NCBI GenBank assembly: GCA_030430205.1
Contig: JAUIGE010000002.1
Span: 124,001-188,000, forward strand
Direction: 5' to 3'
DNA: 64,000 nt
DNA from: Bacteroidia bacterium
GTDB taxonomy: Bacteria; Bacteroidota; Bacteroidia; J057
Part shown: piece by piece, positions 1 to 31,445 of the stretch
Position numbering within the stretch: position 1 is the first letter of the stretch
Layout of the letters: each line of letters opens with the position of its first letter
The notes under the pieces: model-generated
The model's input: only the letters and a program-made list of their open reading frames with translations
Told to the model about the DNA's origin: nothing
Database searches by the model: none
Position numbers and translations under genes: made by a program

Positions 1-1390
1 GTCCCAGCAAGCCAAAATCCACAGGATTGGGTTCCACATCCATGCCCACTTTGCGGGCTTCCGCCACGATGCGCTGCACGATGTCCGTGATCGTCTGCTG
101 GTTGGCGGGATAGCTCAGCTGAAATTTCAGCGGGACTTGCTGCCCGGAGATTTTTTTGTCACGTACCTGATCGCCATCGCTGTCGGTCCAGCCGGCACGG
201 TCCAAACGCGCTTTGGCGCTGTCGGGATTGAAAGGCACAGGCTTCAGCGAAGTATTGTATTCTTTGCTGGCAACAGAAATCGGCGAGGTGATCCTCGTCG
301 CCTGTCCATTGTAAAAGTCGCGGATGATGTCATCCACGGGCAAGACATAGCTAAAAGCCCATCGCAGGTTGCGGTCACTGAAAACGGGCTGGTGTTTGAT
401 CCCGTCAGGACGGGTATTGTAAGCGATATAGGTATATGCATCCCTTGACCGGAAGTCAATATGGTAATGCTCCTGTGCGGTTTCGTTCTCCGAAAGACGC
501 TTGTACGCCTGAGAGGGAATGGCTGTAGCCACATCTATCTTCTGCTGTTTTACCTGCAATTCGACAGCATTTTCATCTAAAACGGCTTTGAAAATAATCT
601 TGTCAGGATGTTGCTGATGCGCATTGGCTTTTTTCCCTTTGCCCCAGTAAGCATCATTTCTGGTAAGCACTATCTGCTGCCCGGAAATCCACTCCTGCAC
701 GATATAAGGACCGCTGGTCCCTTTCAGAAAGTGGGGGTCATTGTTGTATTTGGGGTCATTGAACTCATTTGCCCAGGCGATCATGTTCTGATTGCTTTCT
801 ACCTCGGTATCGGGCGAAGTCACCTCCGCAACGCTGATTCCATCCAGCAGACCCTGCGGATCAAAAAAGCGCTTGTCGATGATGAAAATATCGTTGACGA
901 TGTAGTAGTTGCCGACATATTTGTCGCGCATGATGAGGCTGAAGCGGCGATCATTTTGGGGATCGGGCTGGAAGTCTTTTATTTTTTCAAAAATCCCCCG
1001 CCCGGACTGCACGCTGATGAGTGGACTTGCGGAGGCTTTGATGGAAAAAGCAACATCGGCCGCACGAATGGGGCTGCCGTCATTCCATTGAGCCTTGGGA
1101 TCAAGGGTGTAGGTATAGGTAAGGCCATCGGCAGAAACCTCCGGCAAGGCTGCCAGCAGCGGCGCCTGTTCTTTGGATTGGGGGTCCAAACGGTTGAGCG
1201 TTTGGGCGGTGAAGTACATGATCATGTTTCGTGCACCGAGCCGACCGTTGGTCGGATGCAGGCTTTCAGGCTCGCTGAGCACCTGCACCACAATGTTGTT
1301 AGCTGTTGCTGGTTTGCTTTTTTGGCAGGAAGTAAAGAGAAAAAAGCAAAAAATGGTGGAGAGTAAAAGGCTGTTTCGCAATAATTTCAT
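1..1390 (-). CDS. ABC transporter substrate-binding lipoprotein, SBP family 5 (OppA/DppA-like), 3' end outside window
   Basis: Extracytoplasmic solute-binding subunit of a peptide/nickel-type ABC importer. Reading the minus strand from the ATG at 1388-1390 gives one uninterrupted frame of about 463 codons running off the left edge. The N-terminus is a signal peptide ending in a lipobox (FTSCQ, Cys22), so the mature protein is lipid-anchored. Family-5 landmarks follow: SEPESLHPTN at the mature start, LNRLDPQS, WNDGSPIRAADV and NTRPDGIKHQPVF before a helical region. The downstream stop and any permease genes lie outside the window. It is divergent from gldA, with a probable promoter in the 108-bp gap. 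The substrate cannot be told from sequence; peptides are the default for the family. A long plus-strand frame over the same DNA is an antisense shadow. Confidence 0.88.
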   Translation of the reverse strand, partial: MKLLRNSLLLSTIFCFFLFTSCQKSKPATANNIVVQVLSEPESLHPTNGRLGARNMIMYFTAQTLNRLDPQSKEQAPLLAALPEVSADGLTYTYTLDPKAQWNDGSPIRAADVAFSIKASASPLISVQSGRGIFEKIKDFQPDPQNDRRFSLIMRDKYVGNYYIVNDIFIIDKRFFDPQGLLDGISVAEVTSPDTEVESNQNMIAWANEFNDPKYNNDPHFLKGTSGPYIVQEWISGQQIVLTRNDAYWGKGKKANAHQQHPDKIIFKAVLDENAVELQVKQQKIDVATAIPSQAYKRLSENETAQEHYHIDFRSRDAYTYIAYNTRPDGIKHQPVFSDRNLRWAFSYVLPVDDIIRDFYNGQATRITSPISVASKEYNTSLKPVPFNPDSAKARLDRAGWTDSDGDQVRDKKISGQQVPLKFQLSYPANQQTITDIVQRIVAEARKVGMDVEPNPVDFGLLG

Positions 1391-1417
1391 CTGGCGGGTA
1401 GTTGAGCATTCAAGGAT

Positions 1418-1425
1418 CAAAAGTA
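1418..1425 (-). promoter_or_regulatory. Probable -7 element of the substrate-binding protein gene
   Basis: TACTTTTG on the minus strand fits the Bacteroidota -7 consensus TAnnTTTG. It ends 27 bp before the ATG at 1390. No convincing TTTG -33 box was found at the usual distance, so the call rests on the -7 match and its position in a divergent intergenic gap. Confidence 0.45.
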
Positions 1426-1448
1426 CCAAATCTTTTACAATAATTGCT

Positions 1449-1456
1449 ACTTTTGG
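1449..1456 (+). promoter_or_regulatory. Probable -7 element of gldA
   Basis: TACTTTTG on the plus strand matches TAnnTTTG and lies 42 bp before the gldA ATG. It sits about 30 bp from the opposing -7 element of the divergent lipoprotein gene, so the two promoters are nearly back to back. The -33 region is T-rich but not canonical. Confidence 0.45.
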
Positions 1457-1498
1457 CAAGCAGGGCGTAGTTGCCAAAAGCATACCAGATCATCACCT

Positions 1499-2416
1499 AT
1501 GTTAATTCAGATAAATCAGCTTACCAAAGTCTATGGCGAACAAAAAGCGATAGATGAACTCAATTTTGAGGTGCGTCCGGGAGAGATTCTCGGTTTTCTC
1601 GGCCCCAATGGTGCCGGCAAAACCACCACAATGAAGATCATCACCTGCTATTTGCCGCCGACTTCAGGCTCGGTGAGCCTGGGAGAATACAATATACACG
1701 AGCATCCGCTCGAGATCCGCCGCAGGATCGGCTACCTGCCCGAGCACAATCCTCTCTACCTGGACATGTATGTCAGGGAGTTTCTGCAATTCGTCTCGGC
1801 AGTCTACAAACTGCCCCCCAAAACCCAAAATCAGCGGATCGCTGAGGTGATCGAAATGACCGGTCTCGGTCGGGAGCAGCACAAGAAGATCGGCGCCCTT
1901 TCCAAGGGCTACCGCCAGCGCGTAGGGCTTTCGCAAGCCCTGATTCACAATCCCGAAGTGCTCATCCTCGATGAGCCTACCAGTGGGCTCGATCCCAATC
2001 AGATCGTCGAAATCAGGAACCTGATCCGGGAAGTAGGCAGGGACAAAACGGTTATTTTCTCCTCCCACATCCTCTCCGAGGTAGAAGCCATCGCGGACCG
2101 CGTCATCATCATTGATAAAGGCCGCATCGTGGCGGATTCGGATAGCGCGGGCATACAATCGCTGAGCAGTGATGAGGCACTCATCCAGCTGGAATTGGGC
2201 AAAAAAGGAATGGATTTTTCATCCATTGAAGCCCTGGCGGGCGTCCGCCAGGTAGAGGCTGTTTCGCCTCTCAAATTCATCATCCACACCGACAAAGAGG
2301 CGGAAATCCGCAAAGCCCTTTTTGACAGCTGCGTGGCACAAGGCAATTACCTTGTCTCTTTGAATAAGGAGACTTTTAGCCTGGAGGATGCTTTTCGGAA
2401 GTTGACTTCGAATTGA
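1499..2416 (+). CDS. gldA: GldA-like gliding-motility ABC transporter ATP-binding protein
   Basis: Cytoplasmic ATPase of the GldA/GldF/GldG transporter, required for gliding in Flavobacterium and linked to the type IX secretion/motility apparatus. The 305-residue length is typical. Visible motifs: Walker A GPNGAGKTT (about 35-43), ABC signature LSKGYRQR (134-141), Walker B LILDEP (155-160), D-loop SGLD, and an H-loop SSH. A C-terminal extension of about 90 residues follows the nucleotide-binding domain, as in GldA and related drug/motility ABC-2 exporters. GldF and GldG genes are not in the window, which is usual because gldA is often unlinked. A generic ABC-2 exporter ATPase is the alternative. 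Confidence 0.82.
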   Translation: MLIQINQLTKVYGEQKAIDELNFEVRPGEILGFLGPNGAGKTTTMKIITCYLPPTSGSVSLGEYNIHEHPLEIRRRIGYLPEHNPLYLDMYVREFLQFVSAVYKLPPKTQNQRIAEVIEMTGLGREQHKKIGALSKGYRQRVGLSQALIHNPEVLILDEPTSGLDPNQIVEIRNLIREVGRDKTVIFSSHILSEVEAIADRVIIIDKGRIVADSDSAGIQSLSSDEALIQLELGKKGMDFSSIEALAGVRQVEAVSPLKFIIHTDKEAEIRKALFDSCVAQGNYLVSLNKETFSLEDAFRKLTSN

Positions 2417-2440
2417 GGAGGGTTGGTGGTTTGGGCAATT

Positions 2441-2750
2441 GCATCAATATTTCGAAATAGTATTTTATACGGATGAAGACGCACTAAGCTTTGCCTGACT
2501 TTGAATACAGTTTCTTGACGATGAAAATGAAGAAAATGAAGAAAATGAAGAAAATGGACAATTGAAAATGGAAAATTGACAATGTAAGACCATTCGTTTC
2601 ATTCTCCATTGTCCATTATCCATTATCCATTCTCCATTATCCATTCTCCATTCAATGGATCTGAACCAGTTTCTACTGAAAAAGAGAACCCAAAGTATTA
2701 CGACCATTTGATGCAATCACCCCAGGTTAGTCGTTTGAAGAGTTTGAAGG
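2441..2750. repeat. Dispersed intergenic repeat, copy A, with internal 7-bp tandem arrays
   Basis: About 300 bp that recurs near 60470-60800. Shared blocks include AAGCTTTGCCTGACTTTGA, a stretch of GAAGAAAAT units, GGACAATTGAAAATGG, TTTCTACTGAAAAAGAG and ATTTGATGCAATCACCC. Inside, two heptamer arrays face each other: AATGGAC-type units at 2553-2584 and seven CCATTNT-type units at 2606-2654, which are the reverse complement of the first type. The transcript could fold into a long imperfect hairpin. The other copy has fourteen CCATTNT units, so the array varies in length. It lies between gldA and a possible small gene; no conserved protein frame is apparent. Confidence 0.8.
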
Positions 2751-2791
2751 GAGATACTTTTGTGTTAAATTTATTTTTCAAGCGTAATAAT

Positions 2792-2989
2792 ATGAGCGAA
2801 AGTAAGTGCTTCACATGCATAATCGCACGGCTTACAGAGAGCCTAAAACGTGGCTTTAAAAAGTCAAATGATGACAAACAAAAGCTATTGGAGGAATTGA
2901 GTGGTTCCTGGAGTGATGTAGGAGAGGACGTTACCACGGATATTTACACTTCTCGTTCAAGCTCAGATAAAGGGATTACTTTTGATTAG
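2792..2989 (+). CDS. Small hypothetical protein (65 aa)
   Basis: Candidate small gene starting at ATG 2792 just beyond the dispersed repeat. The product begins MSESKCFTCI, is charged in the middle (RLTESLKRGFKKSNDDKQ) and ends SSDKGITFD. The upstream sequence has TTTGTG and a T-rich stretch that could hold a promoter, though no clean TAnnTTTG is seen. A longer in-frame start lies inside the repeat and is not credible. I do not recognise a family. Support is limited to an open frame with protein-like composition in an otherwise gene-free 800-bp gap. Confidence 0.35.
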   Translation: MSESKCFTCIIARLTESLKRGFKKSNDDKQKLLEELSGSWSDVGEDVTTDIYTSRSSSDKGITFD

Positions 2990-3072
2990 GGATAGCGAAA
3001 AAATAAACCAGCAGTTTGTTTCAAGGAGGTGTCAATAGAGTCTGCTCTGAAGCTTTCGAAGGGAGCCTTTAC

Positions 3073-3128
3073 GAGAAATCTCCTAAACTCCTTAAAAAGG
3101 GGATTATCAATATCTCAGGAGATTTCTC
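3073..3128. repeat. Inverted repeat, 12-bp perfect arms, REP-like
   Basis: GAGAAATCTCCT (3073-3084) and AGGAGATTTCTC (3117-3128) are perfect inverted arms separated by 32 bp. The following text (CTCGAAGACTCGTCAAAATG) resembles intergenic repeat sequences common in Bacteroidota genomes. It lies downstream of alaS (minus strand), so it may act as a transcript-end structure, but there is no T-run directly after it. The rest of 2990-3240 shows no gene. Confidence 0.5.
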
Positions 3129-3240
3129 CTCGAAGACTCGTCAAAATGACATACGATGACAGCTTCTGGCAAAAATGAAACTATAAGTTTATTTCCTTAT
3201 CCTTCCCGAGGAGCTTGTGAGGACTATTTTTTTTCAAATG

Positions 3241-5865
3241 TCACATCATCTCCGCCACCTTTTCCAAAGCCTTCGCAATCCCTTCGGGATCCTTACCACC
3301 AGCAGTGGCTGAAAACGGCTGGCCGCCGCCGCCGCCTTTCACTTCTTTCGCGAGTTCGCGAACCATGTTGCCAGCGTGGTATTTGCCGCTTTGGGCGAGG
3401 TCATCGCTCAAAATTACACTCAGCAAAGCCTTGCCGTCTACGGCTGCACCGAGAACGATCAGGGTATTTTTTGTGCTGTTTTTGAGATCGTGGGAAAGCT
3501 GCTTGAGGTCGTCGGATGAAGTGAGCTGCACCTGAGCACGGATCAGTTGCACGTCTTTGATGGTTTCTGCTTTTAACAGCAATTCATCCTTTACGCCTTT
3601 GAGCTTCTCCGTGGTAAGTGCCTGTAACTGCTTCTCCAGCTCTTTATTTGACTGAATCAAATCCTCAATCGCCTTGTTGATGTCCTTCGGATTTTTGAAG
3701 GTCTCTCTGATTTGGGAAAGGGTGTCAGCCTGCTCATTCAGAAAAGCAAGTGCTTTTTCGCCTGTCAAAGCCTCTACGCGGCGTATACCTGCAGCGCTTG
3801 AGCCTTCGGAGATAAATTTGAAAAGACGTATGTCGCGGCTGTTTTTGACGTGCGTACCGCCGCACAGCTCGACGCTGAACTTGGGATCGAAGACGATCAC
3901 GCGGACTTCATTGCCGTATTTTTCGCCAAACAAAGCCATCGCACCCATTGCTTTGGCGTCGTCTATGGGCATCTCGCGGTACTCAACCAGCGGAATACCG
4001 GCTGCGATTTTTTCATTGACCCTTGCCTCGATTTTCTGGAGTTCTTCCTCGCTCACGCGGCTGTGATGCGAAAAGTCGAAACGAAGCAATTCGTCGGAGA
4101 CGAGGGAGCCGCGCTGCTCCACGTGGACGCCGAGTTCTTCGCGCAATACAGCGTGCATCAGGTGGGTGGCTGTGTGGTTGGACATGACTTTCTGACGAAA
4201 ATCTTTATTTACCGTCGCCAGCCAACTGCCCGTTGGGTTTTCGGGGAGTTTGTTGACCAAATGAACAATCAGTTCATTTTCTTTTTTGGTGTCGATGACA
4301 TGGAGGACTTCATCTCCTTTGGAGAGTTTGCCTTTATCGCCGATTTGTCCACCACTTTCTGCATAGAAAGGGGTTTCTGCCAAAACGACCTGGAAGCCTT
4401 TTTTCTGTTTTATCTCTACCTCGCGGTAGCGCAGTATGCGGGTCTCCAGCTCCAGCTCGTCATAGCCTTTAAAGACAGGCAATTCATTGGATTCAGATAC
4501 GATGACCCAATCCCCCGCTTTAATCTGGCCGACGGCTTTGCTTCGGTCTTTTTGCTCTTGGAGTGCTTTTTCAAAGCCTTTGTTATCTACGGTCCGTCCA
4601 TTTTCACGAGCGATCAGCTCGGTGAGGTCGAGGGGAAAGCCGTAGGTGTCAAACATCATGAAAGCGAAATTGCCATCAATTTCTTTTTCACTGGGATGGT
4701 CATCCAGGTATTTGTTGAGGCGCCTGGTGCCGGAAGCCAGGGTAGATATAAATTGTTTTTCCTCTGCAAAAATCTGCTCACGGAGGTAATCACGCTGCTG
4801 CTCCAGCTCGGGAAATACACCTTTATATACAGTGATCAACAAATCGACCATTTCATAGAGGAATGGTTCGCTGAGGTTGAGGTAGTTAAAAGCGTAGCGG
4901 GAAGCGCGTCGCAGCACACGGCGGATCACATAGCCTGCGCCGGTATTGGAGGGCATCTGCCCGTCAGCGATCGCAAAACTGATGGCCCGTATGTGGTCCA
5001 TGATCACGCGCATGGCGATCTGCGTTTTTTCATCCGCTTCGAAATAGTCTATGCCGGTGCGTTTTTTGAGGAAATCGCGGGCCGGGTCAAAGAGGTCTGT
5101 ATCGTAAGTGGATTTTTTGTCCTGAAGGACCATGAGCAGGCGTTCAAAGCCCATGCCTGTGTCGACGTGTTTGTTGGGAAGGTTTTCAAGGCTTCCGTCT
5201 GCTTTGGCTTCGTATTGGATAAATACGAGGTTCCATATCTCCACCACCTGTGGGTGGTCAGCATTGACGAGCTCCTTGCCGTCGATGGCGGCACGTTCTT
5301 CATCGGACCGCAGGTCGATGTGGATTTCGGAGCATGGCCCGCAAGGGCCGGTGTCGCCCATTTTCCAAAAGTTGTCTTTTGCGCCGCAATTGAGGATGCG
5401 CTCATCAGCGATCCACTTTCTCCATTCTTCCCGGGCTTCCATGTCTTCGCCCAGGTCGAGGTCTTTATCACCTCCAAAAACTGTTACGTAAAGTCGGTCT
5501 TTTTTCAGCTTGTAAATTTCAGTAAGTAGCTCCCATGCCCATCCGATGGCATCCTTTTTGTAATAATCACCAAAGGACCAATTGCCTAGCATTTCAAACA
5601 TGGTATGGTGATAGGTGTCATGTCCCACCTCTTCAAGGTCATTGTGCTTACCGGAAACCCGGAGGCATTTTTGGGTGTCAGCTACACGATTATGGTCCGC
5701 TGTTTTTGTTTCCAAAAAGATGTCCTTGAACTGATTCATTCCGGCGTTTGTAAACATCAAAGTAGGGTCGTCTTTAACGACGATCGGGGCGGAGTCTACA
5801 ATCTTGTGGCCTTTGTCCTGAAAAAATGCAAGATACTGAGCACGAACATTTTGCGATGTATTCAT
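3241..5865 (-). CDS. alaS: Alanine--tRNA ligase
   Basis: Class II aminoacyl-tRNA synthetase charging tRNA-Ala, 874 residues, the normal length. The N-terminal catalytic domain shows FTNAGMNQFKD (motif 1 region) and TGPCGPCSEIH. The editing domain carries the zinc-binding HTATH (about 564-568) and CGGTH (about 668-672) motifs that clear Ser/Gly-tRNA. The C-terminal DHHA1-type domain ends with GGGGGQPFSATAGG. An ATG five codons upstream (5880) is possible; 5865 was preferred because it puts the conserved YLAFF at the usual distance from the start. It is divergent from the M23 peptidase gene. A 559-codon plus-strand frame inside it is antisense and not a gene. Confidence 0.97.
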   Translation of the reverse strand: MNTSQNVRAQYLAFFQDKGHKIVDSAPIVVKDDPTLMFTNAGMNQFKDIFLETKTADHNRVADTQKCLRVSGKHNDLEEVGHDTYHHTMFEMLGNWSFGDYYKKDAIGWAWELLTEIYKLKKDRLYVTVFGGDKDLDLGEDMEAREEWRKWIADERILNCGAKDNFWKMGDTGPCGPCSEIHIDLRSDEERAAIDGKELVNADHPQVVEIWNLVFIQYEAKADGSLENLPNKHVDTGMGFERLLMVLQDKKSTYDTDLFDPARDFLKKRTGIDYFEADEKTQIAMRVIMDHIRAISFAIADGQMPSNTGAGYVIRRVLRRASRYAFNYLNLSEPFLYEMVDLLITVYKGVFPELEQQRDYLREQIFAEEKQFISTLASGTRRLNKYLDDHPSEKEIDGNFAFMMFDTYGFPLDLTELIARENGRTVDNKGFEKALQEQKDRSKAVGQIKAGDWVIVSESNELPVFKGYDELELETRILRYREVEIKQKKGFQVVLAETPFYAESGGQIGDKGKLSKGDEVLHVIDTKKENELIVHLVNKLPENPTGSWLATVNKDFRQKVMSNHTATHLMHAVLREELGVHVEQRGSLVSDELLRFDFSHHSRVSEEELQKIEARVNEKIAAGIPLVEYREMPIDDAKAMGAMALFGEKYGNEVRVIVFDPKFSVELCGGTHVKNSRDIRLFKFISEGSSAAGIRRVEALTGEKALAFLNEQADTLSQIRETFKNPKDINKAIEDLIQSNKELEKQLQALTTEKLKGVKDELLLKAETIKDVQLIRAQVQLTSSDDLKQLSHDLKNSTKNTLIVLGAAVDGKALLSVILSDDLAQSGKYHAGNMVRELAKEVKGGGGGQPFSATAGGKDPEGIAKALEKVAEMM

Positions 5866-11882: not shown

Positions 11883-12908
11883 ATGAGATATCTTTTAATA
11901 CTCTGCCTGCTCAGTGTCGGCACATATCTGTTCGCTCAAACCCCTGATACTTTCTTCATGGACCGGTATCAGGTCCCATGCGATTCGGGAGAAGCTACCT
12001 TTTATCGGATCGAACAAATATCCGGTTCTCTAAAATTGATCCGTGAGTATGCTTATCCTTCGGACCAACTCCTCTGTGAAGGAGCTGATATCAGCACCAT
12101 TTATGGCCCTTTGAAAGACGGTTTGTGGACCTGGTTTTATGCCAATGGGGCCAGAAAGAAACAGTGTTTATATTTTGGAGGGAATATCCAGGGAAAATCA
12201 ACTGAATGGCACCCAAATGGTCAAAAAAAGGCCGAATGGAAGTATCAGGAAAAGGCAAAGGAATTGGCAGCCTCCTGGGACGAAGACGGCCGGGAAATGG
12301 TCGTGCATGGCACAGGGCTATTCGAAGATTATTACGACAACGGTCAACTTCACCAGCAAGGCAGGGTAAAATTGGGTAAGCAGGAAGGCGAATGGAAGGC
12401 ATGGCATCGAAATGGTCGCCTGATGCATCGACTGACTTTCAGGGAGGGAATAGTGGTAGGGAAAGAGGAAATTTGGGATTCTACCTTCCATCGTTTATAC
12501 ACCCAGGAACATGCAAAAGCAGGAAAAAGAGCAGATGTGAAATACCAGGACAGTAAGGGGAAAATCCTCTATCATGCAAAGTGGGAAGTGAAAAAAGAAA
12601 AAACAAGCTGGGTCGATTTAGGTAACATAGAGCCTTATCGTGTGAACTTCGAGTATATCAAAGAAGCTATCGGCTTCATGGATGAAATGGTCCGGGCTGG
12701 CGCGCAGGGAGAGGTACGAATAAAAATGTTGATTAACATGAAAGGGCGGGTTGAGAAAGTAGATTTTCTGGTACTGGCAGACCCTTTACTAAGGAAAAAT
12801 ATGCTTAATATCGTCAAAGAACTCCGGTATACGCCCCCCATTGTCGATGGAGCCTTATCTAAAGTTTGGCTGGATTTGCCTGTTAAGTTTATTATTTTGG
12901 ATGATTGA
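11883..12908 (+). CDS. YwqK/MORN-like repeat protein with C-terminal TonB-like domain
   Basis: Exported 341-residue protein; signal peptide about 1-19 (cleaved near LFAQ). Residues about 70-230 carry repeats of the YwqK/MORN type: GPLKDGLWTWFYANGARKK, HPNGQKKAEW, FEDYYDNGQLHQQGR and GEWKAWHRNGRLMHR. Residues about 265-341 resemble the TonB C-terminal fold (IKMLINMKGRVEKVDFL ... VKELRYTPPIVDGAL ... WLDLPVKFIIL). There is no transmembrane anchor beyond the signal peptide, so it is a periplasmic or surface protein, not a classical TonB. A weak promoter candidate (TTTG 11822-11825, TATCTTCG 11847-11854) precedes it. Function unknown. Confidence 0.75.
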   Translation: MRYLLILCLLSVGTYLFAQTPDTFFMDRYQVPCDSGEATFYRIEQISGSLKLIREYAYPSDQLLCEGADISTIYGPLKDGLWTWFYANGARKKQCLYFGGNIQGKSTEWHPNGQKKAEWKYQEKAKELAASWDEDGREMVVHGTGLFEDYYDNGQLHQQGRVKLGKQEGEWKAWHRNGRLMHRLTFREGIVVGKEEIWDSTFHRLYTQEHAKAGKRADVKYQDSKGKILYHAKWEVKKEKTSWVDLGNIEPYRVNFEYIKEAIGFMDEMVRAGAQGEVRIKMLINMKGRVEKVDFLVLADPLLRKNMLNIVKELRYTPPIVDGALSKVWLDLPVKFIILDD

Positions 12909-12963: not shown

Positions 12964-13830
12964 TTGAAAATACTTTCTTCATTTATAAAAATATGCAGTA
13001 TATGCATTCTCCTCTCCGCCTGCCAGCAGGCAGACGAAATCCGTGTGCCGCTTGACCACAGACTCAGCAAATACCGCCCGCGCTGGACGCCCACTATCCT
13101 GAAGGAATTTTATCCTTCGGATGAAGCATATCCCACCCTCTGGGGAGGCGATATCCGCCTCGACAACCTCAGCTGCCGCTTAGGCCTCTACGACAGAAAC
13201 GCCAATGGGCGTTTTGATGACATCGGCGAGGACATGATCCTGCTCGCCCCTTTTGGCGCGGAGGATGTCACCCTCTATCCGCATGCCAATGCGGATTATT
13301 GGAAAGAGGACTTTGTCCTCAGGCTGAAAGACACCTCCTGGGAAGTGTTGCGCCTGGACTCCGCAGGCCGCTGGATGGAGATACGTAGGCTGAAAGAGCC
13401 CGCTCCCAGCGCAGATATCCAATTCATGGATCAGCTCCCCAACCTTCCCCTGAAAACCCTCGCAGGGGATACCACCTACCTCCACGATCACCTGCAAGGC
13501 GATAAACTGCTCTATATAGAAGTCTGGAGCTCCTGGCACCAGCGCTCCTTCGAATCCACTCCCTACCTGAAAGCAACCTTTCACAAATACCGGGAGAAGC
13601 TCAATGTGCTCAGCCTCATCTACAATGAAGTGGAGTACGAGCGCGTTCATCGTAATAACCGCAAGCATGCCGTTGACTGGCCGCAGGCCATTTATTCAGA
13701 GGCGGCAGGCACTGCTTTGCTGCATTTGGGCTGGGTGCCTTATGGCGTGCTTTTTTCCCCGGATGGAAAAATGATTAAATCCGGCTTGACTCCCCACGAA
13801 TTAGAAGGTTTCTTAGAGGAATTGTTATAA
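12964..13830 (+). CDS. Lipoprotein with cysteine-less thioredoxin-like domain
   Basis: Lipid-anchored envelope protein of 288 residues; lipobox LSAC (Cys20). TTG at 12964 is the only start that keeps the signal peptide. After an unassigned N-terminal half, residues about 155-288 follow the TlpA/AhpC layout: LPLKTLAGDTTYL, LLYIEVWSSWHQRS, a middle strand, then WVPYGVLFSPDGKMIKSG. The position normally held by WCxxC reads WSSWHQRS, so both redox cysteines are absent and oxidoreductase activity is not expected. It is first of a three-gene set (4-bp and 6-bp gaps) with a barrel-like protein and the patatin-CorA fusion. Confidence 0.75.
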   Translation: MKILSSFIKICSICILLSACQQADEIRVPLDHRLSKYRPRWTPTILKEFYPSDEAYPTLWGGDIRLDNLSCRLGLYDRNANGRFDDIGEDMILLAPFGAEDVTLYPHANADYWKEDFVLRLKDTSWEVLRLDSAGRWMEIRRLKEPAPSADIQFMDQLPNLPLKTLAGDTTYLHDHLQGDKLLYIEVWSSWHQRSFESTPYLKATFHKYREKLNVLSLIYNEVEYERVHRNNRKHAVDWPQAIYSEAAGTALLHLGWVPYGVLFSPDGKMIKSGLTPHELEGFLEELL

Positions 13831-13834
13831 GCGT

Positions 13835-15010
13835 ATGAGCATGAAAAACAACTTAATTGTTTTGTTGTTGTGTATAGGCTGGCATGTTTTGGCGGCTCAG
13901 TATGAGCCTGTCCTCTATGCCTACGAACTGAACTACTTCAACAATGGGCAGCCATTGCCTGCCGAATCCCATATTATGATACATGGCGATGCCGATACCA
14001 GCATCAAGCGGGTGGAGATTTCCCTTTTTAAAGGAAAATCCAGCCACGATCACAATCCCATGCACCAGGCCAGCTGGAAGCGCTTGGATGATTCCAAAGC
14101 GGGGACTTTTCGCATTCCCTTCAACTACCAGCTGCACAGCAATGAGGACTACGATTTTGTGATCACTTATTTCAGGGAAATAAACGATGAAGAACGCATC
14201 GCCCTGAAGGCGCTGCTGGAAAATGTTATCGGCACCTATCTGGAGCAGCAAATCAGCCTGAACAATGGCAAGGCACAATTGGGAAAAAGCCCGGCGGCCC
14301 TGCTTTCCGGCCTAAACGAGATCGTAGAGAAAGCCATGACACACTACCGCCATGTGAATGAAATAAGCTTTCGAGGCTTCAGCGAAGTCATCCTGGAAGG
14401 ATTAAAAGTAATGAACCATTTCCAGGAGCCCGCCAAAAGCGCGGTAGACGGAACGGCAACAAGCCCCTCTTTGGCAGAAAAACGCCAACAACTCCATCAG
14501 CAGGCCTTATTGGAACTCAGCTATATACTCGATACACGGCTTTTGGTCCAGACAGACCTGCGGTCTATCAGAGAATATCCTACGGAAAAAGCCCGAAATA
14601 CCCTTGCCATCAACCTCGGTTATGGCGGTGTTTACCTCGCTGGCAATACCAGCAACTTTTCCTATGGCAGCGGGCCCTATATCGGGCTTTCCTTTCCGCT
14701 CTCATCCCGGTATTTGGGCCATACTTTCTGGAGCAATACCTCCATTTCGGCAGGCGCATTTCTGCAGGATTTTGTCAATGAAGAAGATCAGGTGATATCC
14801 GGGCCTATATTTGGTCGGCCCTATTATGTAGCTTTAGGCTATAATTTGTTTCGCTTTGTCAGGTTGAATGCAGGCATGACGGTTTTGGAAGCCAAAGGCA
14901 GCTCCAGCATCGGGGGAGGCTCCATAGAGGTAGGAGACATAAAGGTGAAACCCTTTGTAGGCATCAGTGCCGAGATTCAACTTTCATTAGGATTTAAAGA
15001 AAAAAGATAG
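13835..15010 (+). CDS. Exported hypothetical protein, C-terminal barrel-like
   Basis: 391 residues with a signal peptide (about 1-21, ending LAAQ). The middle (about 105-250) is helical and charged. The last ~140 residues alternate hydrophobic and polar positions with many Gly/Tyr/Phe, for example LAINLGYGGVYLAG, YIGLSFPLSSRYLG, YYVALGYNLFRFVR and KPFVGISAEIQLSLGF, which suggests outer-membrane strands. I recognise no named family. It is tightly placed between the lipoprotein and the patatin-CorA gene, so co-transcription is likely. Confidence 0.7.
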   Translation: MSMKNNLIVLLLCIGWHVLAAQYEPVLYAYELNYFNNGQPLPAESHIMIHGDADTSIKRVEISLFKGKSSHDHNPMHQASWKRLDDSKAGTFRIPFNYQLHSNEDYDFVITYFREINDEERIALKALLENVIGTYLEQQISLNNGKAQLGKSPAALLSGLNEIVEKAMTHYRHVNEISFRGFSEVILEGLKVMNHFQEPAKSAVDGTATSPSLAEKRQQLHQQALLELSYILDTRLLVQTDLRSIREYPTEKARNTLAINLGYGGVYLAGNTSNFSYGSGPYIGLSFPLSSRYLGHTFWSNTSISAGAFLQDFVNEEDQVISGPIFGRPYYVALGYNLFRFVRLNAGMTVLEAKGSSSIGGGSIEVGDIKVKPFVGISAEIQLSLGFKEKR

Positions 15011-15016
15011 AAACCT

Positions 15017-16975
15017 ATGGCAATGCCAGACAACAAAAGAATAGGTGTCGCTCTTTCAGGTGGAGGGGCGAGAGGCATCGCTCATATAGGAGTGCTCCAG
15101 GCACTCGAAGAAAACGGCATTAGCCCCCAATTCGTCTCCGGCTCCAGTGCGGGCTCCATCGTTGGAGCGCTTTATGCCGCAGGCAAAAGCCCGCAGGAAA
15201 TCCTGCAAATATTCAAAAATACGCCCCTCTATAAGCTTTTTAAGCTTACCATGCCTACAGCAGGGCTGACAGACCTTTCCAATCTTAAGCTCATCCTTGC
15301 GCAGCATATTGAGAAAGATAGTTTCGAAGGGCTGGAACGGCAGTTTTTTGTCTGCGTGACAAATCTGACAAAAGGGCGTTTTGAAATCTGCTCCAAGGGG
15401 GAACTTTTTGAGTGGATCGCCGCTTCCTGTACCATCCCTATTGTATTCTCTGCCAGGGAAATCAACGGATCTTCCTATGTGGACGGAGGGCTGCTCAATA
15501 ACCTGCCCATAGAGCCTTTGGAGGAATCCAAATGTGACCTGATCGTCGGCGTGAATGTCACGCCCATAGATTCCAGCGGTGAGCTGGATAATATGCTGAC
15601 CATCGGTTCCCGTACGTTTGATATGGCCCTTTGGGCCAATGTACAACCGCGCCTTGAGCGCTGTCATGTCACGATCGAACCGAAAACGGATGATTTTGGC
15701 TTATTCAGCACCAGCCAGACGGATGAGATCTTTCAGGCGGGCTACGATGCCGCGATCCGTCAGATCCCCAATATCCTGAAGGCCCTCGCCCAGGGCGAGC
15801 CTGTCAACAAGCCCCTTCGGCCCAACCTTCCAAATATTCCTTTCAACATACCCACCCCCAATCTGGGCAAAATTGTGAAAAGAACGCGCATCATGACCTT
15901 TGGTACCCAACGCAAAGAGAATGTCAGTTCGCCGGCCTCTTTGGTACATCTGCCGCCAGCCACCCTGTTTTATGTTGGTCGAAGACGCAATGGCACCGCT
16001 GTTTTCAGCCTCATTCAATATGATGAAAAAGAGTTGACAGAAAAAGGGAGCCTGGAGGAAAGCGAAATTGAAAGAATTATCAATTCTGAGCAGGTCAGTT
16101 GGCTCAACATAGATGGGGTTCACGATACAGAATCCATTGAATTTATTTCCAAAAGATTTGGCCTTCACCCGCTCACGGCAGAAGATATCGTGCACACCCA
16201 GCAGCGATCTGCCGTAGAGGTGTATGAAAATTATCTTTTTATCAGCCTGAAGATGCTTTCTCTTGATCCGCAGGATGAGCGCATTGATATTGAGCAGGTT
16301 AGCCTGGTGCTGGGAGGGCATTTTGTGCTGAGTTTTCAGGAGAAATCCGAAGATGTCCTGGAACCGCTACGAGATCGCTTGCGCAAAGCTGTAGGCCGGG
16401 TACGCAGGCGAAAGTCAGACTATTTATTTTACTCCATCATGGATTTGATCGTCAGCAACTATGCCGTAGTCATGGAGGAACTCGACGAGCGCATAGAGCA
16501 ATTGGAAATCAAGATGGATAAGGAAGACAATAAAAAATTGCTTGAAGAGGTGCAGGAGCTCAAAAAAGGCCTGGCGTATCTGAGAAATGCCATCAGCCCC
16601 CTCCGGCTGGCCGTGGATGAACTGATAGAGACTGAGCATGCGCTCATTGCTGAGGAGACCTGGCCTTATTTCAAAGACCTCTCTGCCCAGATAGAGCAAG
16701 TGATAGAGCAGATGGAAACCCAACGCACCGTGCTCGATTCTCTTCGAGAACAATACATCTCCATGAGCAGCTACCGCTCCAATGAGATCATGAAAGTCCT
16801 GACCATCATCGCCAGTATTTTCATCCCCCTTACCTTCATCGCAGGTATCTACGGGATGAATTTTGACAATATTCCTGAGCTACATACGAAGAATGGCTAC
16901 TTCGTTGTCTGGGGAGTGATGCTGACAGTCATGATGGGTATGCTGTATTTCTTCCGGAGGAAGAAGTGGTTGTAA
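15017..16975 (+). CDS. Patatin-like phospholipase fused to CorA magnesium channel
   Basis: One 652-residue frame with two complete modules. Residues about 8-250 are a patatin/RssA-type lipid acyl hydrolase: oxyanion GGGARG (15-20), nucleophile elbow GSSAG (42-46, Ser44) and catalytic DGG (156-158). After a proline-rich linker (about 255-300), residues about 305-652 are CorA: soluble alpha/beta region, long stalk helices (about 470-590), TM1 (about 592-612), the channel motif YGMNF with GMN at 613-615, TM2 (about 627-646) and a basic tail. All key residues of both parts are present. CorA gates on cytosolic Mg2+, and the patatin part would lie on that side. It is third in an operon; MPDNKR (codon 3) is an alternative start. 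The coupling of activities is inference. Confidence 0.9.
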   Translation: MAMPDNKRIGVALSGGGARGIAHIGVLQALEENGISPQFVSGSSAGSIVGALYAAGKSPQEILQIFKNTPLYKLFKLTMPTAGLTDLSNLKLILAQHIEKDSFEGLERQFFVCVTNLTKGRFEICSKGELFEWIAASCTIPIVFSAREINGSSYVDGGLLNNLPIEPLEESKCDLIVGVNVTPIDSSGELDNMLTIGSRTFDMALWANVQPRLERCHVTIEPKTDDFGLFSTSQTDEIFQAGYDAAIRQIPNILKALAQGEPVNKPLRPNLPNIPFNIPTPNLGKIVKRTRIMTFGTQRKENVSSPASLVHLPPATLFYVGRRRNGTAVFSLIQYDEKELTEKGSLEESEIERIINSEQVSWLNIDGVHDTESIEFISKRFGLHPLTAEDIVHTQQRSAVEVYENYLFISLKMLSLDPQDERIDIEQVSLVLGGHFVLSFQEKSEDVLEPLRDRLRKAVGRVRRRKSDYLFYSIMDLIVSNYAVVMEELDERIEQLEIKMDKEDNKKLLEEVQELKKGLAYLRNAISPLRLAVDELIETEHALIAEETWPYFKDLSAQIEQVIEQMETQRTVLDSLREQYISMSSYRSNEIMKVLTIIASIFIPLTFIAGIYGMNFDNIPELHTKNGYFVVWGVMLTVMMGMLYFFRRKKWL

Positions 16976-17023: not shown

Positions 17024-18493
17024 TTATCTCAATTTCCCCTCTTCTGGCTCTAAAAAGGCATTTGCCTTTTCAAGCAAAAGTTGCATTTCTTCAAGATCAT
17101 CGTTAACGATTTCTGAACTAAATTGATGTACATGATCCAACATGCGAATAAAAGCATCCGGGAGCCTTCTTCTAGTTAACTTTCTCAATGCCAATAAATA
17201 ATCTTCCCTATAGACGGTTGGGATCAAAATTTTTGACTGTTTTGCCTTTACTAACTCGGCATTCATCATAACTCGTGCAATTCTTCCATTTCCATCCAGG
17301 AAAGGGTGTACTTCACTTACCAAAAACATAATATATGCTGCTTTGGCAAAAGGATGCTTTAATGCTTGATAATAGTCAAAACCTTTTATCAGTGTCCCCT
17401 TAACCAGCCCAAAGTCTACAAATGCTGTGCGGCCAGCAAAGTTATTTTTGTCTTTAAATACACCTGGATTTTTATGTTTCCGAGCAGATAGTAGAATTTT
17501 ATGCCTGGATATGAGAAGAGAGAGAAGTTCCTCCGCCGTTTCAGGAGTTTTACTCATCTCAAATTTATTGGAAACAATTTGATAAGTTCCTAAAACATCA
17601 TGAGAATCTTCATTTCTGGAGGCCATTGGAATTTGGGTTTCCACGATTTCTTTTGCTTCATCAATTGCAAAGACCGTCCCTTCGATATAATTGGAAAAGT
17701 AGCTTTCAAAAAAAGCGTAATTCTCAAAAGCCTTTTTTGTCAAATTTTGCTCCGTTCTATAAGGAAATTCGCGTTGTTGTAATTCTCGGAATAGAATTTC
17801 AAATAATTCAATCCGACCAACATCGTAAGGTATACCAAAAGCCCTTGCTCTTGCTACCGGAGAAGTCAATATCCTGGAAGGATGTGATGATAGCAAGGAA
17901 CTGATTATTTTATTGAGTTTGAAAAATTCTTTCTCAAAGTGCAGTTGGGTTGCAATCTCTCTAGCCTTATCTCTCAAGGCATTTAGTCCTTCCTCCCCAT
18001 GTACTTTTATTAATTCTTCAAGGCGCTTTTCAATTTCTTCAAGTGGCAATGTTTTTGAGTCTGGCCCTGATTTTCGGCTGGATTGAAGATTTTCTAAAAA
18101 AGCTCTTTCACGTTGGGAAACATAGAGTTCCCCTGATAGTGGATTATCACCATTGATGGGGCCGCTTCCTTGTAGAAAGTGGATGGTGATTTCTCCCAAT
18201 TTAATAGTTCGGGTATATGAATAAGATAAAAATAATTGACCTGAAATTGTAGGCTTGAATTCAAATGCAGACCTATGACTTAAAATTGATCCCGGAAATA
18301 GGTTTCCTAATATTGTAAACAGGTTCCTTTTAATGATTACAGAAGGGCTTTCTAGTAAGTTTGATGTATAAATTCGTGCTGCAAGTTTCCGAAGCAATCC
18401 TTGTTTCTCTAATTTTGAGATTTGCTGTGAAATCGAAGAATTAGAGGAGCTAAAGATAATTTCAGGTAGTTGGTCAGATAAAATTTTTCCCAT
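17024..18493 (-). CDS. Fic family protein with N-terminal winged-helix (AbiEi-like) region
   Basis: Probable AMP-transferase of 489 residues. The Fic motif HPFLDGNGRIAR (about 396-407) is complete. An inhibitory-helix motif S-x-x-x-E-G is visible as SNYIEG, N-terminal to the Fic core, so it looks like an autoinhibited class II Fic. The first ~150 residues are unlike most Fic proteins: ISQQISKLEKQGLLRKLAARIYTSN reads as a winged helix-turn-helix, followed by LSHRSAFEF and IHFLQGSGP, resembling AbiEi-type antitoxin/regulator domains. The start at 18493 was chosen because the frame upstream passes through a duplicated copy of the start region. It may be a self-regulating toxin-antitoxin-like unit; targets are unknown. 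Confidence 0.82.
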   Translation of the reverse strand: MGKILSDQLPEIIFSSSNSSISQQISKLEKQGLLRKLAARIYTSNLLESPSVIIKRNLFTILGNLFPGSILSHRSAFEFKPTISGQLFLSYSYTRTIKLGEITIHFLQGSGPINGDNPLSGELYVSQRERAFLENLQSSRKSGPDSKTLPLEEIEKRLEELIKVHGEEGLNALRDKAREIATQLHFEKEFFKLNKIISSLLSSHPSRILTSPVARARAFGIPYDVGRIELFEILFRELQQREFPYRTEQNLTKKAFENYAFFESYFSNYIEGTVFAIDEAKEIVETQIPMASRNEDSHDVLGTYQIVSNKFEMSKTPETAEELLSLLISRHKILLSARKHKNPGVFKDKNNFAGRTAFVDFGLVKGTLIKGFDYYQALKHPFAKAAYIMFLVSEVHPFLDGNGRIARVMMNAELVKAKQSKILIPTVYREDYLLALRKLTRRRLPDAFIRMLDHVHQFSSEIVNDDLEEMQLLLEKANAFLEPEEGKLR

Positions 18494-18543
18494 TAAAAAG
18501 CTATTTCCATAAAGAACACTAAAATTTTTCCCATTAAAAAGCG
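18481..18543. repeat. 22-bp direct repeat at the Fic gene start
   Basis: AAAATTTTTCCCATTAAAAA plus GC occurs at 18481-18502 and again, identically, at 18522-18543 (41-bp period). On the minus strand each copy holds an ATGGGAAAAATTTTA start; only the inner one continues into the Fic frame. It looks like a recent tandem duplication of the translation-start region, or a paired operator site. Confidence 0.75.
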
Positions 18544-18567
18544 GTATTTCTAAAAAAAATAACAATA

Positions 18568-27609: not shown

Positions 27610-28314
27610 TCACCCCCCACTCACCGGAATCCGATTCAACTCCTCCTTCACCTGCCGCCAATTCGGCAGGTAATGATCCAGAAGCGCCTTAAATCTATCA
27701 TTATGATGCCTTTCAAAGAAATGCACCATTTCATGTACTAGCACATACTCTAGGCAAGCAAGGGGCGTTTTGGCTAGCTCCAGATTAAGCCAAATCCGCT
27801 TTTGGGAGATATTGCAGGAGCCCCATTTCGTCTTCATCTGTTTAATTCCCCAAAAATCAACTTGAAGATCCATCTTCCTTTCCCAGTGGGAAATCATTTC
27901 CGGGAGGATTTCTTTGAGCTGGGAACGATACCACTCATTGAGCAGGTTGGTTTTATAGGCCAGACTGGCATCAGGCTTTATAAAGATGTCCAGGTAGGTA
28001 TTGCCGTTTAGCTCTACGCGGCCGGCACCGGTCGTTTCGTGGATGCGGAGCAGGTAACGCTGCCCCTGGAAGTAATGACTTTCTCGCTCTTTAAACTCAC
28101 GGATGGGGATGCGTTCCTGGCTTTTGAATTTTCGTTGATGGCGTTTGATCCAACCCAACTTTGAGATAGTAAAGAGCCTGATGGCCTCATCATCCACCCG
28201 CATGGGAACGGCGATGCGAACCCTGCCAGATGGTGGATAAACCGCCAGGTGCATATTTTTGATATCCTTGCGGATAACATCTACCACAATATCATTGATC
28301 GTAATTTGGTACAT
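27610..28314 (-). CDS. YgjP-like/M48-type metallopeptidase of the type I restriction operon
   Basis: 234 residues of the YgjP/DUF45 (WLM-clan) family. Landmarks: MKTKWGSCN, then the zinc motif HEMVH followed by FFERHHNDRF, and the N-terminal SGRVRIAVPMRV segment. These proteins commonly follow hsdR in type I restriction operons; their substrate is unknown. The ATG overlaps the hsdR stop by one base, so it is the last gene of the operon. Confidence 0.9.
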   Translation of the reverse strand: MYQITINDIVVDVIRKDIKNMHLAVYPPSGRVRIAVPMRVDDEAIRLFTISKLGWIKRHQRKFKSQERIPIREFKERESHYFQGQRYLLRIHETTGAGRVELNGNTYLDIFIKPDASLAYKTNLLNEWYRSQLKEILPEMISHWERKMDLQVDFWGIKQMKTKWGSCNISQKRIWLNLELAKTPLACLEYVLVHEMVHFFERHHNDRFKALLDHYLPNWRQVKEELNRIPVSGG

Positions 28315-31300
28315 TAATAGTCTCGCTGTTTTTTGACCAAATCAAAAATTCGATCGATTTCATCTTCATTCTTAATGCCATAAGTCGCCATGGCTTCTTG
28401 TATAGCAAATTTCACTTCTTTCCGCTTGAATCTATTTCCCCGCCAGTCATCTTTCTTGGTGTTCATGATTATTTGATCCAGCGCAATTGCCAAATCTTCA
28501 TTCCTTTCTAAGTTTTCATACAAAGCCCTCTTCGCATTTGTATTTAGTGAAGTAGGATAGTTAGTCGAATTACTTGGCTCCTTGATTTTACGGGCAAGGT
28601 CAACCATATTGGTAAGATATCTTTCGTATTCTTCTGATTTCTCTTTTCGGAGTTGGATTAGTTCATCCAGGAGGACACTCATCTTACCAAAGTATACGGG
28701 ATTCGTCGGTCTTTCTTCAATGATGACTTTCCGCAAATTGTTTTCAATGGTTTCTGCCATGGCCTCCTGATTCTTACGAATTGGAGCAGGCAACTCATTT
28801 AGGGCATCCTTTCCCTTTTCAACAATCAATTCGACTAGGCTTAAGTCGTCAAAGCGTGAAAGTACCCTACTTTCCTCTGCCCCAATATAGGAGTCAATCA
28901 GGTGGCGCATCGCAGGCTCAAATCGTTTAAGGTCAACGTAGTCCCCACTTGCAATTTGAACTTCCTTGCGAAGATTCTCAAAATACTTCACTTCAGCTTT
29001 GATCTCTCCAATCTCTTTAGGGCTATAACCTGCTTCTGGCATTTCATCTGCGAGATTAGCATAAGCTCTGATCAATGAGATCACGGATTTGTAGAGGGCG
29101 ACTCTCCTTGGTTCCGTGTCTTTTAATTCATCTGGATTTTCAGAGTTACCAACGAAATAATGCTGAAACTCAACCTGCCCTTTGGGGGGCTCCACCGGCT
29201 CGATCAAGGCCCTTATCGTTTCCAGTGCATCATCCAGGCGAATTTTGCCTTTCTTCAACCGATCCTCCAGCAGACCAGCTACATCTTCCTTGTCATAAGC
29301 ATCAAAAGCTTCGTTTGTATAGTCTTTAATCGACTGGTCTAAGCTCTTAAACAAATCCTTATAGTCAATGATGTAACCGTACTCTTTATCGTCTCCATCA
29401 AGCCGATTGACCCTACAGATAGCTTGAAATAAGCCATGGTCTCTCATGCTTTTGTCAATATAGAGATAGGTTGCGGAAGGGGCATCAAATCCTGTTAAGA
29501 GCTTGTCAACCACGATTAAAAGCTTCATTTGAGCAGGCTCCTCGACAAATTTCTTTTTTACTTCTTTCTCAAAGGTTTCGACATCCTTACCATTAAGCAT
29601 TTTCTGGTAAATGTCATATTTAATGAGTTTCTCAGTCATGCCTTCCCCCGTTTCTTCCCCTTTCACATCAGAAGGTGAAGGGGCAAAGGAAGTAACAATA
29701 GCACATTCTCTCAGGCCTGCATTTTGAAAGAGTTCGTAATAGCGGCAAGCATTGTACACACTTTCAGATACCAGCATGGCATTGCCTCTACCATTCTGAA
29801 GGCGCTCTTTTCGCGCCATATCCATCACAATGTCTAGCACAATTTTCTCGAGGCGTGATTTAGAACTGAAGACTTTCTTCATCGTCCCCCAGCGTTGCTT
29901 TAGTTCCGTTTTGGCAAAGTCCGTGAGTCCTCTGGTTTTTAAATCAAACCATTCATCGATTCTGTCGGCGGAGCCTAATTTTTGCTCTATATCTCTTGCC
30001 TCATATCGGAGATCAAGCACAACCTTGTCATCAACGGCTTCATTAAATTTATAGGTATGAATATACTTCCCAAACACTTCCAGACTGGTTTGTTTATCCT
30101 TTTTGAGCAGAGGCGTGCCTGTAAATCCAATAAATAAAGCATTGGGCAAAAGCTTGGTCATCGCCTCATTCAATTTCCCGCTTTGGGTACGGTGGCACTC
30201 ATCCACAAATACATACAGGTCGCCCTTGGCCCGAAAACCAGAAGGAAGGCTACTCCTTAGACTTTGGATATAAGCACTTACTTCTTTGGCACTGGCTTCT
30301 TCTTTCCCACCAAATTTATGTACCAAAGAGCATATCAACCAGGGTGAATTAGCATTGAGTTTATCAATCAGATCCTTTCCATCCGTGGTACGATAAATGT
30401 TTTCATCTACCCCAGTAAACACCTTCTCAATCTGCTCATCCAGCTCCGTGCGATCCGTGATGATCAATACCCGGGCATTTTCCACGTTCTCACGGATCCA
30501 TTTGGTCAACCATACCATGGTCAAAGATTTGCCACTTCCCTGGGTGTGCCAAATGATGCCCCCTTCCCTTTTGCGAATATGCTCCTGGGAAGCTCTACAG
30601 CCAAAGTACTGGTTGGCTCTGGGTAACTTTTTGATACCTCTATCAAAAACGACATAGTCGTGAAGCATTTCAATAAAACGCTCTTTATTGAGCATTTCAA
30701 CAATGTTTTTGTCCAGCCGATGGTCCACTCGTGCTGCGAGATCGCGGATAGGTTTCGTAAGCTGGAGTAAATATTGATCGTTGGGATTTCGCTCTTCGCT
30801 CACCTCCTTCCACTTAAGGTAATACCTTTCTTTGGTTCCAATAGCCCCATATGCTATACCTTCATGATCACTGCCAGCCATAACAAACTGCATGGTCGTA
30901 AAGAAAGGCTTAATGAAAAGGTGTTTTTGGTTATCCAGGTTTTGGCGAATCCCCTCTGAAAGGGAAACTGTACTTCGCTTCAGCTCAATCACCCCCAAGG
31001 CAATGCCGTTGATATACAGAACAATATCCGGACGTTTATTATTCGCGCCTTTGACGGACACTTCTTCCGCAATTGCAAAGTCATTTTTGAGTGGCTTTTT
31101 CCAATCAATAAGCCATACGGTTTCCTTATTTCGTCCTATTTTAGGTTGAACGACTACGCCATAGCGAAGCAAGGAATACACCTCCTTATTGATATCATAT
31201 AAAGACTTGCTTTGATCAGAGGCAGTTTTAAAAAGGATATACAATGCCTTATCGATTAGGTTTTTGTCATACTTTTGGTTCAAAAACTTCCTCAGTATAC

Positions 31301-31445
31301 TTTCTTCAATATTGGAGTTATTTTCTCGCTTTTCCCAGTTGCCGAGATAACGGTACTTTAGGACGTCTTGGAATAAACCGACTACCCGATTTTGGGTGGT
31401 ACGTTCCAGCTGTCCGATTTTGGAGGTGATGGGTTTGGAGCTCAT
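28314..31445 (-). CDS. hsdR: Type I restriction endonuclease subunit R
   Basis: Motor/nuclease subunit of 1043 residues, a normal length. The N-terminal nuclease has P139-D140 and E154-x-K156 ([15 protein letters not shown]). The helicase part has Walker A HTQGSGKS (about 300-307), motif [12 protein letters not shown] (DECH about 415-418), motif III FTGTPL, and later motifs ending [12 protein letters not shown]-terminal helical region contacts HsdM/HsdS. Intact throughout. Translocates DNA and cuts at a distance when it meets unmethylated sites. It lies 18 bp after the DUF262 gene stop. Confidence 0.96.

Follow-up and report, generated by a model that had tools for sequence, protein, structure and literature searches.

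The window analysed here is a stretch of 64,000 nucleotides (contig 20, 124001–188000) from a Bacteroidia genome of 7.24 Mb in 80 contigs (G000). A single ATG-to-stop frame of 652 codons on its forward strand encodes a 652-residue protein in which a patatin-like phospholipase is followed by a CorA-type channel. The start is either the ATG of residue 1 or that of residue 3; the corresponding protein of G001, the one further genome of the genus that was compared, begins four residues further in. The features of this gene and of the block in which it lies are listed below, with amino-acid identities to the G001 counterparts; TmCorA is the CorA of T. maritima and PlpD is a patatin of Pseudomonas aeruginosa.

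11883–12908 (+): MORN_2/TonB_C protein, which opens the conserved block (Pfam; same domains in G001, 25%)
12964–13830 (+): ResA/thioredoxin-like putative lipoprotein (weak NCBIfam match below cut-off; 38%)
13835–15010 (+): 391-residue, probably exported protein with no Pfam match, 6 nt upstream of the fusion (45%)
15017–16975 (+): patatin–CorA fusion gene, 652 residues (reading frame, Pfam, NCBIfam, orthologous fusion in G001)
15050–15520 (+): patatin-like phospholipase domain (PF01734, residues 12–168, E = 5.6e-37; match to PlpD, PDB entry 5fqu)
15059–15076 (+): oxyanion-hole motif GGGARG, residues 15–20 (identical in G001)
15140–15154 (+): nucleophile motif GSSAG with Ser44, residues 42–46 (GTSAG in G001, GxSxG in relatives)
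15482–15490 (+): catalytic aspartate motif DGG with Asp156, residues 156–158 (invariant in seven of seven aligned proteins)
15782–15925 (+): linker, about residues 256–303, basic (8 K/R, 2 D/E) and variable (comparison with G001)
15923–16972 (+): complete CorA, residues 303–652, starting where the stand-alone CorA of G002 has its methionine (Pfam, NCBIfam, TmCorA)
16184–16186 (+): Asp390, equivalent of TmCorA Asp89 in the M1 metal site (alignment; site from PMC3629940)
16676–16678 (+): Asp554, equivalent of TmCorA Asp253 in the M1 metal site (alignment; site from PMC3629940)
16853–16861 (+): GMN filter motif, residues 613–615, between the two membrane helices (also kept in G001)

Both domains are recognized almost from end to end. 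The patatin profile is matched over positions 2–190 of 191 and the CorA profile PF01544 over positions 2–292 of 292 (residues 358–648, E = 1.4e-71), both far over the curated cut-offs. NCBIfam TIGR00383, which names the C-terminal half as a magnesium/cobalt transporter CorA, covers residues 332–652 with 290.9 bits against a cut-off of 200.75. Chance cannot explain two near-full-length domains and all of their motifs in one frame. The sequence-only reading had placed a patatin and a CorA in one uninterrupted frame and had named GGGARG, GSSAG, DGG, GMN and two transmembrane segments; the frame was borne out by the domain matches and every motif was located, the transmembrane segments as two hydrophobic stretches near residues 590–616 and 627–647.

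The patatin homologous domain, with its C-terminal helices, extends to about residue 255, and no signal peptide precedes it. It carries the full set of patatin-like phospholipase motifs (GGGxRG, GxSxG and DGG/A), and the motif serine and aspartate are present in every patatin sequence aligned; the half is a predicted lipid acyl hydrolase. The closest solved patatin by sequence is PlpD (E = 1e-29), which is also the best PDB match of a low-confidence AlphaFold model of the patatin half alone. PlpD (PDB entries 5fqu and 5fya) has the same motifs, and in it the patatin is joined to an outer-membrane barrel and is secreted. In contrast, the partner in the present fusion is an inner-membrane channel and the patatin has no signal peptide.

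The CorA half aligns with TmCorA (PDB entries 3jcf, 4i0u and 8tmb) from end to end, with 41% identity over the whole length (E = 6e-81), although TmCorA has no N-terminal enzyme. The half combines full-length homology to the family, two membrane helices of which the first is followed by GMN, and the acidic pair of the M1 site, which in TmCorA (D89/D253) was defined by structure and mutation (PMC3629940). Asp390 and Asp554, and also Glu389 and Asp476, are retained in both fusions, and the residues corresponding to TmCorA Glu88, Asp175, Asn288 and Thr305 are likewise kept. Two positions differ: TmCorA Asp179 is a serine in the window fusion, and Asp277 is a glutamate there and an aspartate in G001. 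With the M1 aspartates and GMN present in both fusions, it is plausible that the CorA half has retained Mg2+ sensing and transport. An AlphaFold model of the whole fusion is good for the CorA half, being fairly confident over the stalk, and poor for the patatin half, where a single usable relative limited the model; the CorA-half model matches TmCorA structures in Foldseek (E down to 9e-26). The fusion is the only CorA gene in its own genome, and a search of G001 with the fusion returned its counterpart as the sole match. MgtE is present in both genomes, and the fusion is therefore not the only possible Mg2+ importer.

The two halves are joined by a linker of 40–48 residues, the length differing between the two fusion species. 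Amino-acid identity between the window and G001 proteins is 0.60 in the patatin half, 0.23 in the linker, where G001 has a nine-residue gap, and 0.56 in the CorA half; constraint is seen in the two halves but not in the linker between them. The model places the linker at pLDDT values below 50. When linkers were shuffled 26–30% stayed open, so that the open linker frame alone is weak evidence for the fusion. A scan of the junction found no terminator-like site, and promoter-like sites were no more numerous than in shuffled sequences. In the window, translation might also start internally at Met293 (ATG at 15893), which has no counterpart at that position in G001. Internal initiation, or proteolysis of the linker, could provide a route to separated halves.

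The sequence-only reading had proposed a search of related genomes for the same architecture, and G001 supplies it: a fusion of 641 residues, 55% identical over residues 6–652, in which Pfam finds both domains and which has no internal stop. The two genes differ by in-frame insertions and deletions only. The order of the three upstream genes is the same in G001, where the fusion overlaps the stop codon of the 391-residue protein's counterpart; in the window the two are separated by the 6 nt gap. The fusion and the three upstream genes look like one transcription unit. We also considered that an assembly join or a sequencing error had erased the stop between two neighbouring genes, a suspicion to which it lends some weight that the architecture was seen nowhere outside the genus in the searches made. 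Such an artefact would have had to produce the same join, in the same gene block, in an independent genome at 55% protein identity, and in no other genome of the family that was read do patatin and CorA lie side by side; we regard its probability as close to negligible. The patatin–CorA fusion is confirmed as a real natural gene fusion.

The earlier reading had also held that separate genes in close relatives, with a stop near 15,800–15,900, would speak against a fusion. Separate genes are indeed found in other genera, at unlinked loci; within the genus G001 is fused. As to the stop, the G001 frame has none at the junction, and the loci of the other genera are not split neighbours. Since the two genes are unlinked in the other genomes of the family that were read, loss of a stop could not have made the fusion recently. 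Stop loss between old neighbours is not supported either, as the parts are unlinked in those genomes and the orthologues of the 391-residue protein are found at other places.

That patatin and CorA are ordinarily separate, as had been stated from the sequence, holds for the 11 other genomes of the family, in which the genes stand alone at unlinked loci or are both absent. The stand-alone patatins of the family (e.g. L008, L011 and L018) belong to the same tree lineage as the fused patatin, with 45–55% identity to it, and the stand-alone CorA proteins share 36–49% identity with the CorA half. In a tree of 70 CorA proteins the fused CorA falls beside the stand-alone CorA of G002 and G010, from the same family, with support of 100/99; the patatin tree is less resolved and places the fused patatin among stand-alone patatins of the family. 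As both halves group with stand-alone proteins of their own family, the parts are native. Furthermore, the CorA half begins at the start of the G002 CorA and the patatin domain is whole, which indicates an end-to-end joining of two resident genes, each complete. These comparisons indicate that the fusion arose inside the genus from resident genes and is vertically kept.

Unlike the fusion, the stand-alone patatins of the family are separate genes that mostly lie beside a thioredoxin/FKBP_N gene. We note that this pairing, with a thioredoxin-like gene that has an FKBP_N region, recurs in five genera (L138, 993–2852; L139, L140, L141 and L146). The fusion locus of the genus is without it and has a different ResA-like gene two genes upstream. 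Members of the protein family to which the 391-residue protein belongs are encoded in most genomes of the bacterial family. The window's own genome has one more of them (G000, contig C48, 45642–46736, minus strand), and in both G009 and G011 they occur as tandem pairs; the protein may be a β-barrel.

The fusion was searched for at four levels, family (13 genomes), order (22), class (395) and phylum (395), in overlapping sets that comprise about 800 Bacteroidota. It was also searched for in 398 Pseudomonadota, the phylum to which a Vogesella genome belongs, and in 294 Planctomycetota, that of a Sedimentisphaerales genome. Full-length matches were found in G000 and G001 only. Beyond Bacteroidota the distribution is a sampled one: matches in Pseudomonadota and Planctomycetota were listed down to E = 1e-62, and more distant fusions could hide there. 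A scan of GTDB contigs from the genomes of 84,980 species, checked by tblastn, gave no fusion among the best 80 matches; apart from a single stand-alone patatin these were all stand-alone CorA genes. None of 72,556 plasmids had a record covering 80% of the query, and viral contigs yielded no fusion, only two distant patatins. Long CorA frames do occur in other genomes; in most of them the extra stretch ahead of CorA resembles GC-rich read-through and not a real domain.

A full-text search of open-access papers found no description of the patatin–CorA architecture. Taken singly, the halves are ordinary representatives of known families, and it is their combination that is new; the fusion of a transporter-type CorA to a phospholipase appears to be undescribed in open-access papers. 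Related designs are known. Type III CRISPR effectors combine a CorA-type membrane protein with an enzyme, either NrN (PMC10600005) or Csm6-2 (PMC11229360), but there the CorA protein is divergent, is activated by a signal and is encoded within a cas locus, whereas here a transporter-type CorA is joined to a lipase. The 'chanzyme' TRPM7 likewise has a divalent-cation channel and an enzyme on one polypeptide, but it is eukaryotic, its channel is unrelated and its enzyme is an unrelated kinase. NTE-type patatins join a patatin to a cNMP-binding sensor domain and have no channel; one is encoded in G009 of the same family (L042, 574–2349, plus strand), with cyclic-nucleotide-binding, NTE P-loop-like and patatin domains. 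Channel–enzyme fusions are well known in animals, and little was found in bacteria outside the CRISPR effectors. The present protein would be a bacterial 'channel-enzyme', a housekeeping Mg2+ channel joined to a phospholipase, with the join kept across a deep split in the genus.

As judged from the sequences, both domains are complete with their motifs intact, and the fusion is kept in two species and absent elsewhere in the family. From this we infer expression as one chain, a pentameric assembly, catalysis, transport and a tethering purpose. CorA forms a homopentameric funnel with a length of about 11 nm, whose large intracellular domains bear inter-subunit Mg2+ sites (PMC6927688). The polypeptide would have an N-terminal patatin and a C-terminal CorA divalent-cation channel, and as CorA N-termini are cytosolic the patatin would be cytosolic too. 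The product would be a pentameric Mg2+ (or Co2+) channel to which as many as five phospholipase domains are flexibly tethered. Taking each residue as about 0.34 nm, the extended linker would reach up to 14–16 nm, more than the length of the funnel, and the enzyme could therefore reach the inner leaflet of the bilayer. The most probable gain would be a phospholipase held permanently at the inner membrane in a fixed ratio to the channel.

In our view, the most consistent interpretation is that the fusion tethers the phospholipase to the membrane with both activities kept, to which we assign a probability of roughly 0.55. The stand-alone patatins of two related genomes end in a basic amphipathic tail (LSPLRRFSKKIGDFFRNLFN, moment 0.91, in G007; NFWRRMRTSFLGVFG, moment about 0.5, in G004), which suggests that some patatins of this group may bind the membrane unaided. 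The CorA half could take over this role of the tail, and the fusion would make it permanent. The stand-alone patatins of G006 and G003 are without such a tail, and an inherited need for tethering is thus not general. It also tells against tethering that the kept Mg2+-site residues would fit a regulatory role as well.

Such a role, a Mg2+-sensing switch on phospholipid turnover, had been suggested in the sequence-only reading. Loss of cytosolic Mg2+ would break the symmetric closed pentamer and the resulting domain movement would turn the patatins on or off, so that phospholipid turnover follows cytosolic Mg2+. If this were true, the conformational change of CorA would directly control a phospholipase on the same chain. 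The cytosolic domains of TmCorA do move widely with Mg2+ (apparent Kd about 2 mM; PMC6927688), the four acidic residues named above are present in both fusions, and TRPM7 shows that such designs exist. However, the linker is long, divergent in both sequence and length and of low confidence in the model, and thus gives no sign of a rigid, conserved element for coupling; Asp179 is replaced by serine, and MgtE offers another possible route for Mg2+. We consider a switch of this kind possible but doubtful, and tethering explains the anatomy with fewer assumptions than a tight Mg2+ switch. Coupling might also run in the reverse direction, the patatin tuning the channel by changing the lipids beside the pore (lysolipid, free fatty acid). 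The anatomy does put the enzyme next to the channel, but TmCorA, the closest channel in sequence, is Mg2+-gated without such a partner, and we regard reverse coupling as improbable.

An immune function, with the fusion acting as a double membrane-damaging effector, is suggested by the fact that patatins (CapV) and divergent CorA proteins are both known abortive-infection effectors, and by the type III CRISPR CorA effectors that are sometimes fused to enzymes (PMC10600005; PMC11229360). In PADLOC the patatin half also gives a weak match to phospholipase effectors (E = 2e-11). Yet the patatin half scores 40.7 bits against the CapV model NF041079, for which the cut-off is 200, and the CorA half is an ordinary, not divergent, TIGR00383 transporter that no CorA effector model matched. 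The neighbours are envelope proteins, with no CD-NTase, cyclase, Cas10 or other Cas protein among the neighbouring proteins scanned, and conservation in the genus is vertical and in synteny. We rejected a defence effector on gene family and context, and consider it highly improbable. Membrane tethering remains the favoured reading. CorA is among the structurally best-studied channels, which makes the fusion a ready system for asking whether Mg2+ state can directly control membrane lipid hydrolysis, a question on which a negative answer would be as informative as a positive one.

Some observations on neighbouring and comparable genes may be added. The only defence-like gene among the scanned neighbours of the fusion lies on the opposite strand at 17024–18565; it encodes a 513-residue protein with a C-terminal Fic domain and a weakly AbiEi-like N-terminal stretch. 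In G001 it is not beside the fusion, and an unrelated gene of 378 residues follows instead. Further along the window, 28314–31445 (minus strand) encodes an HsdR subunit of a type I restriction system. In another genome (L183; G412, contig C8, 8500–16000), positions 952–4491 (plus strand) hold a frame of 1180 residues in which a phosphoketolase, comprising XFP_N, XFP and the first 114 of the 202 positions of XFP_C, is followed by a full CorA. The truncated XFP_C, together with a CorA of normal length in sister genomes, suggests a deletion or an assembly join, and the frame may be an enzyme–CorA fusion.
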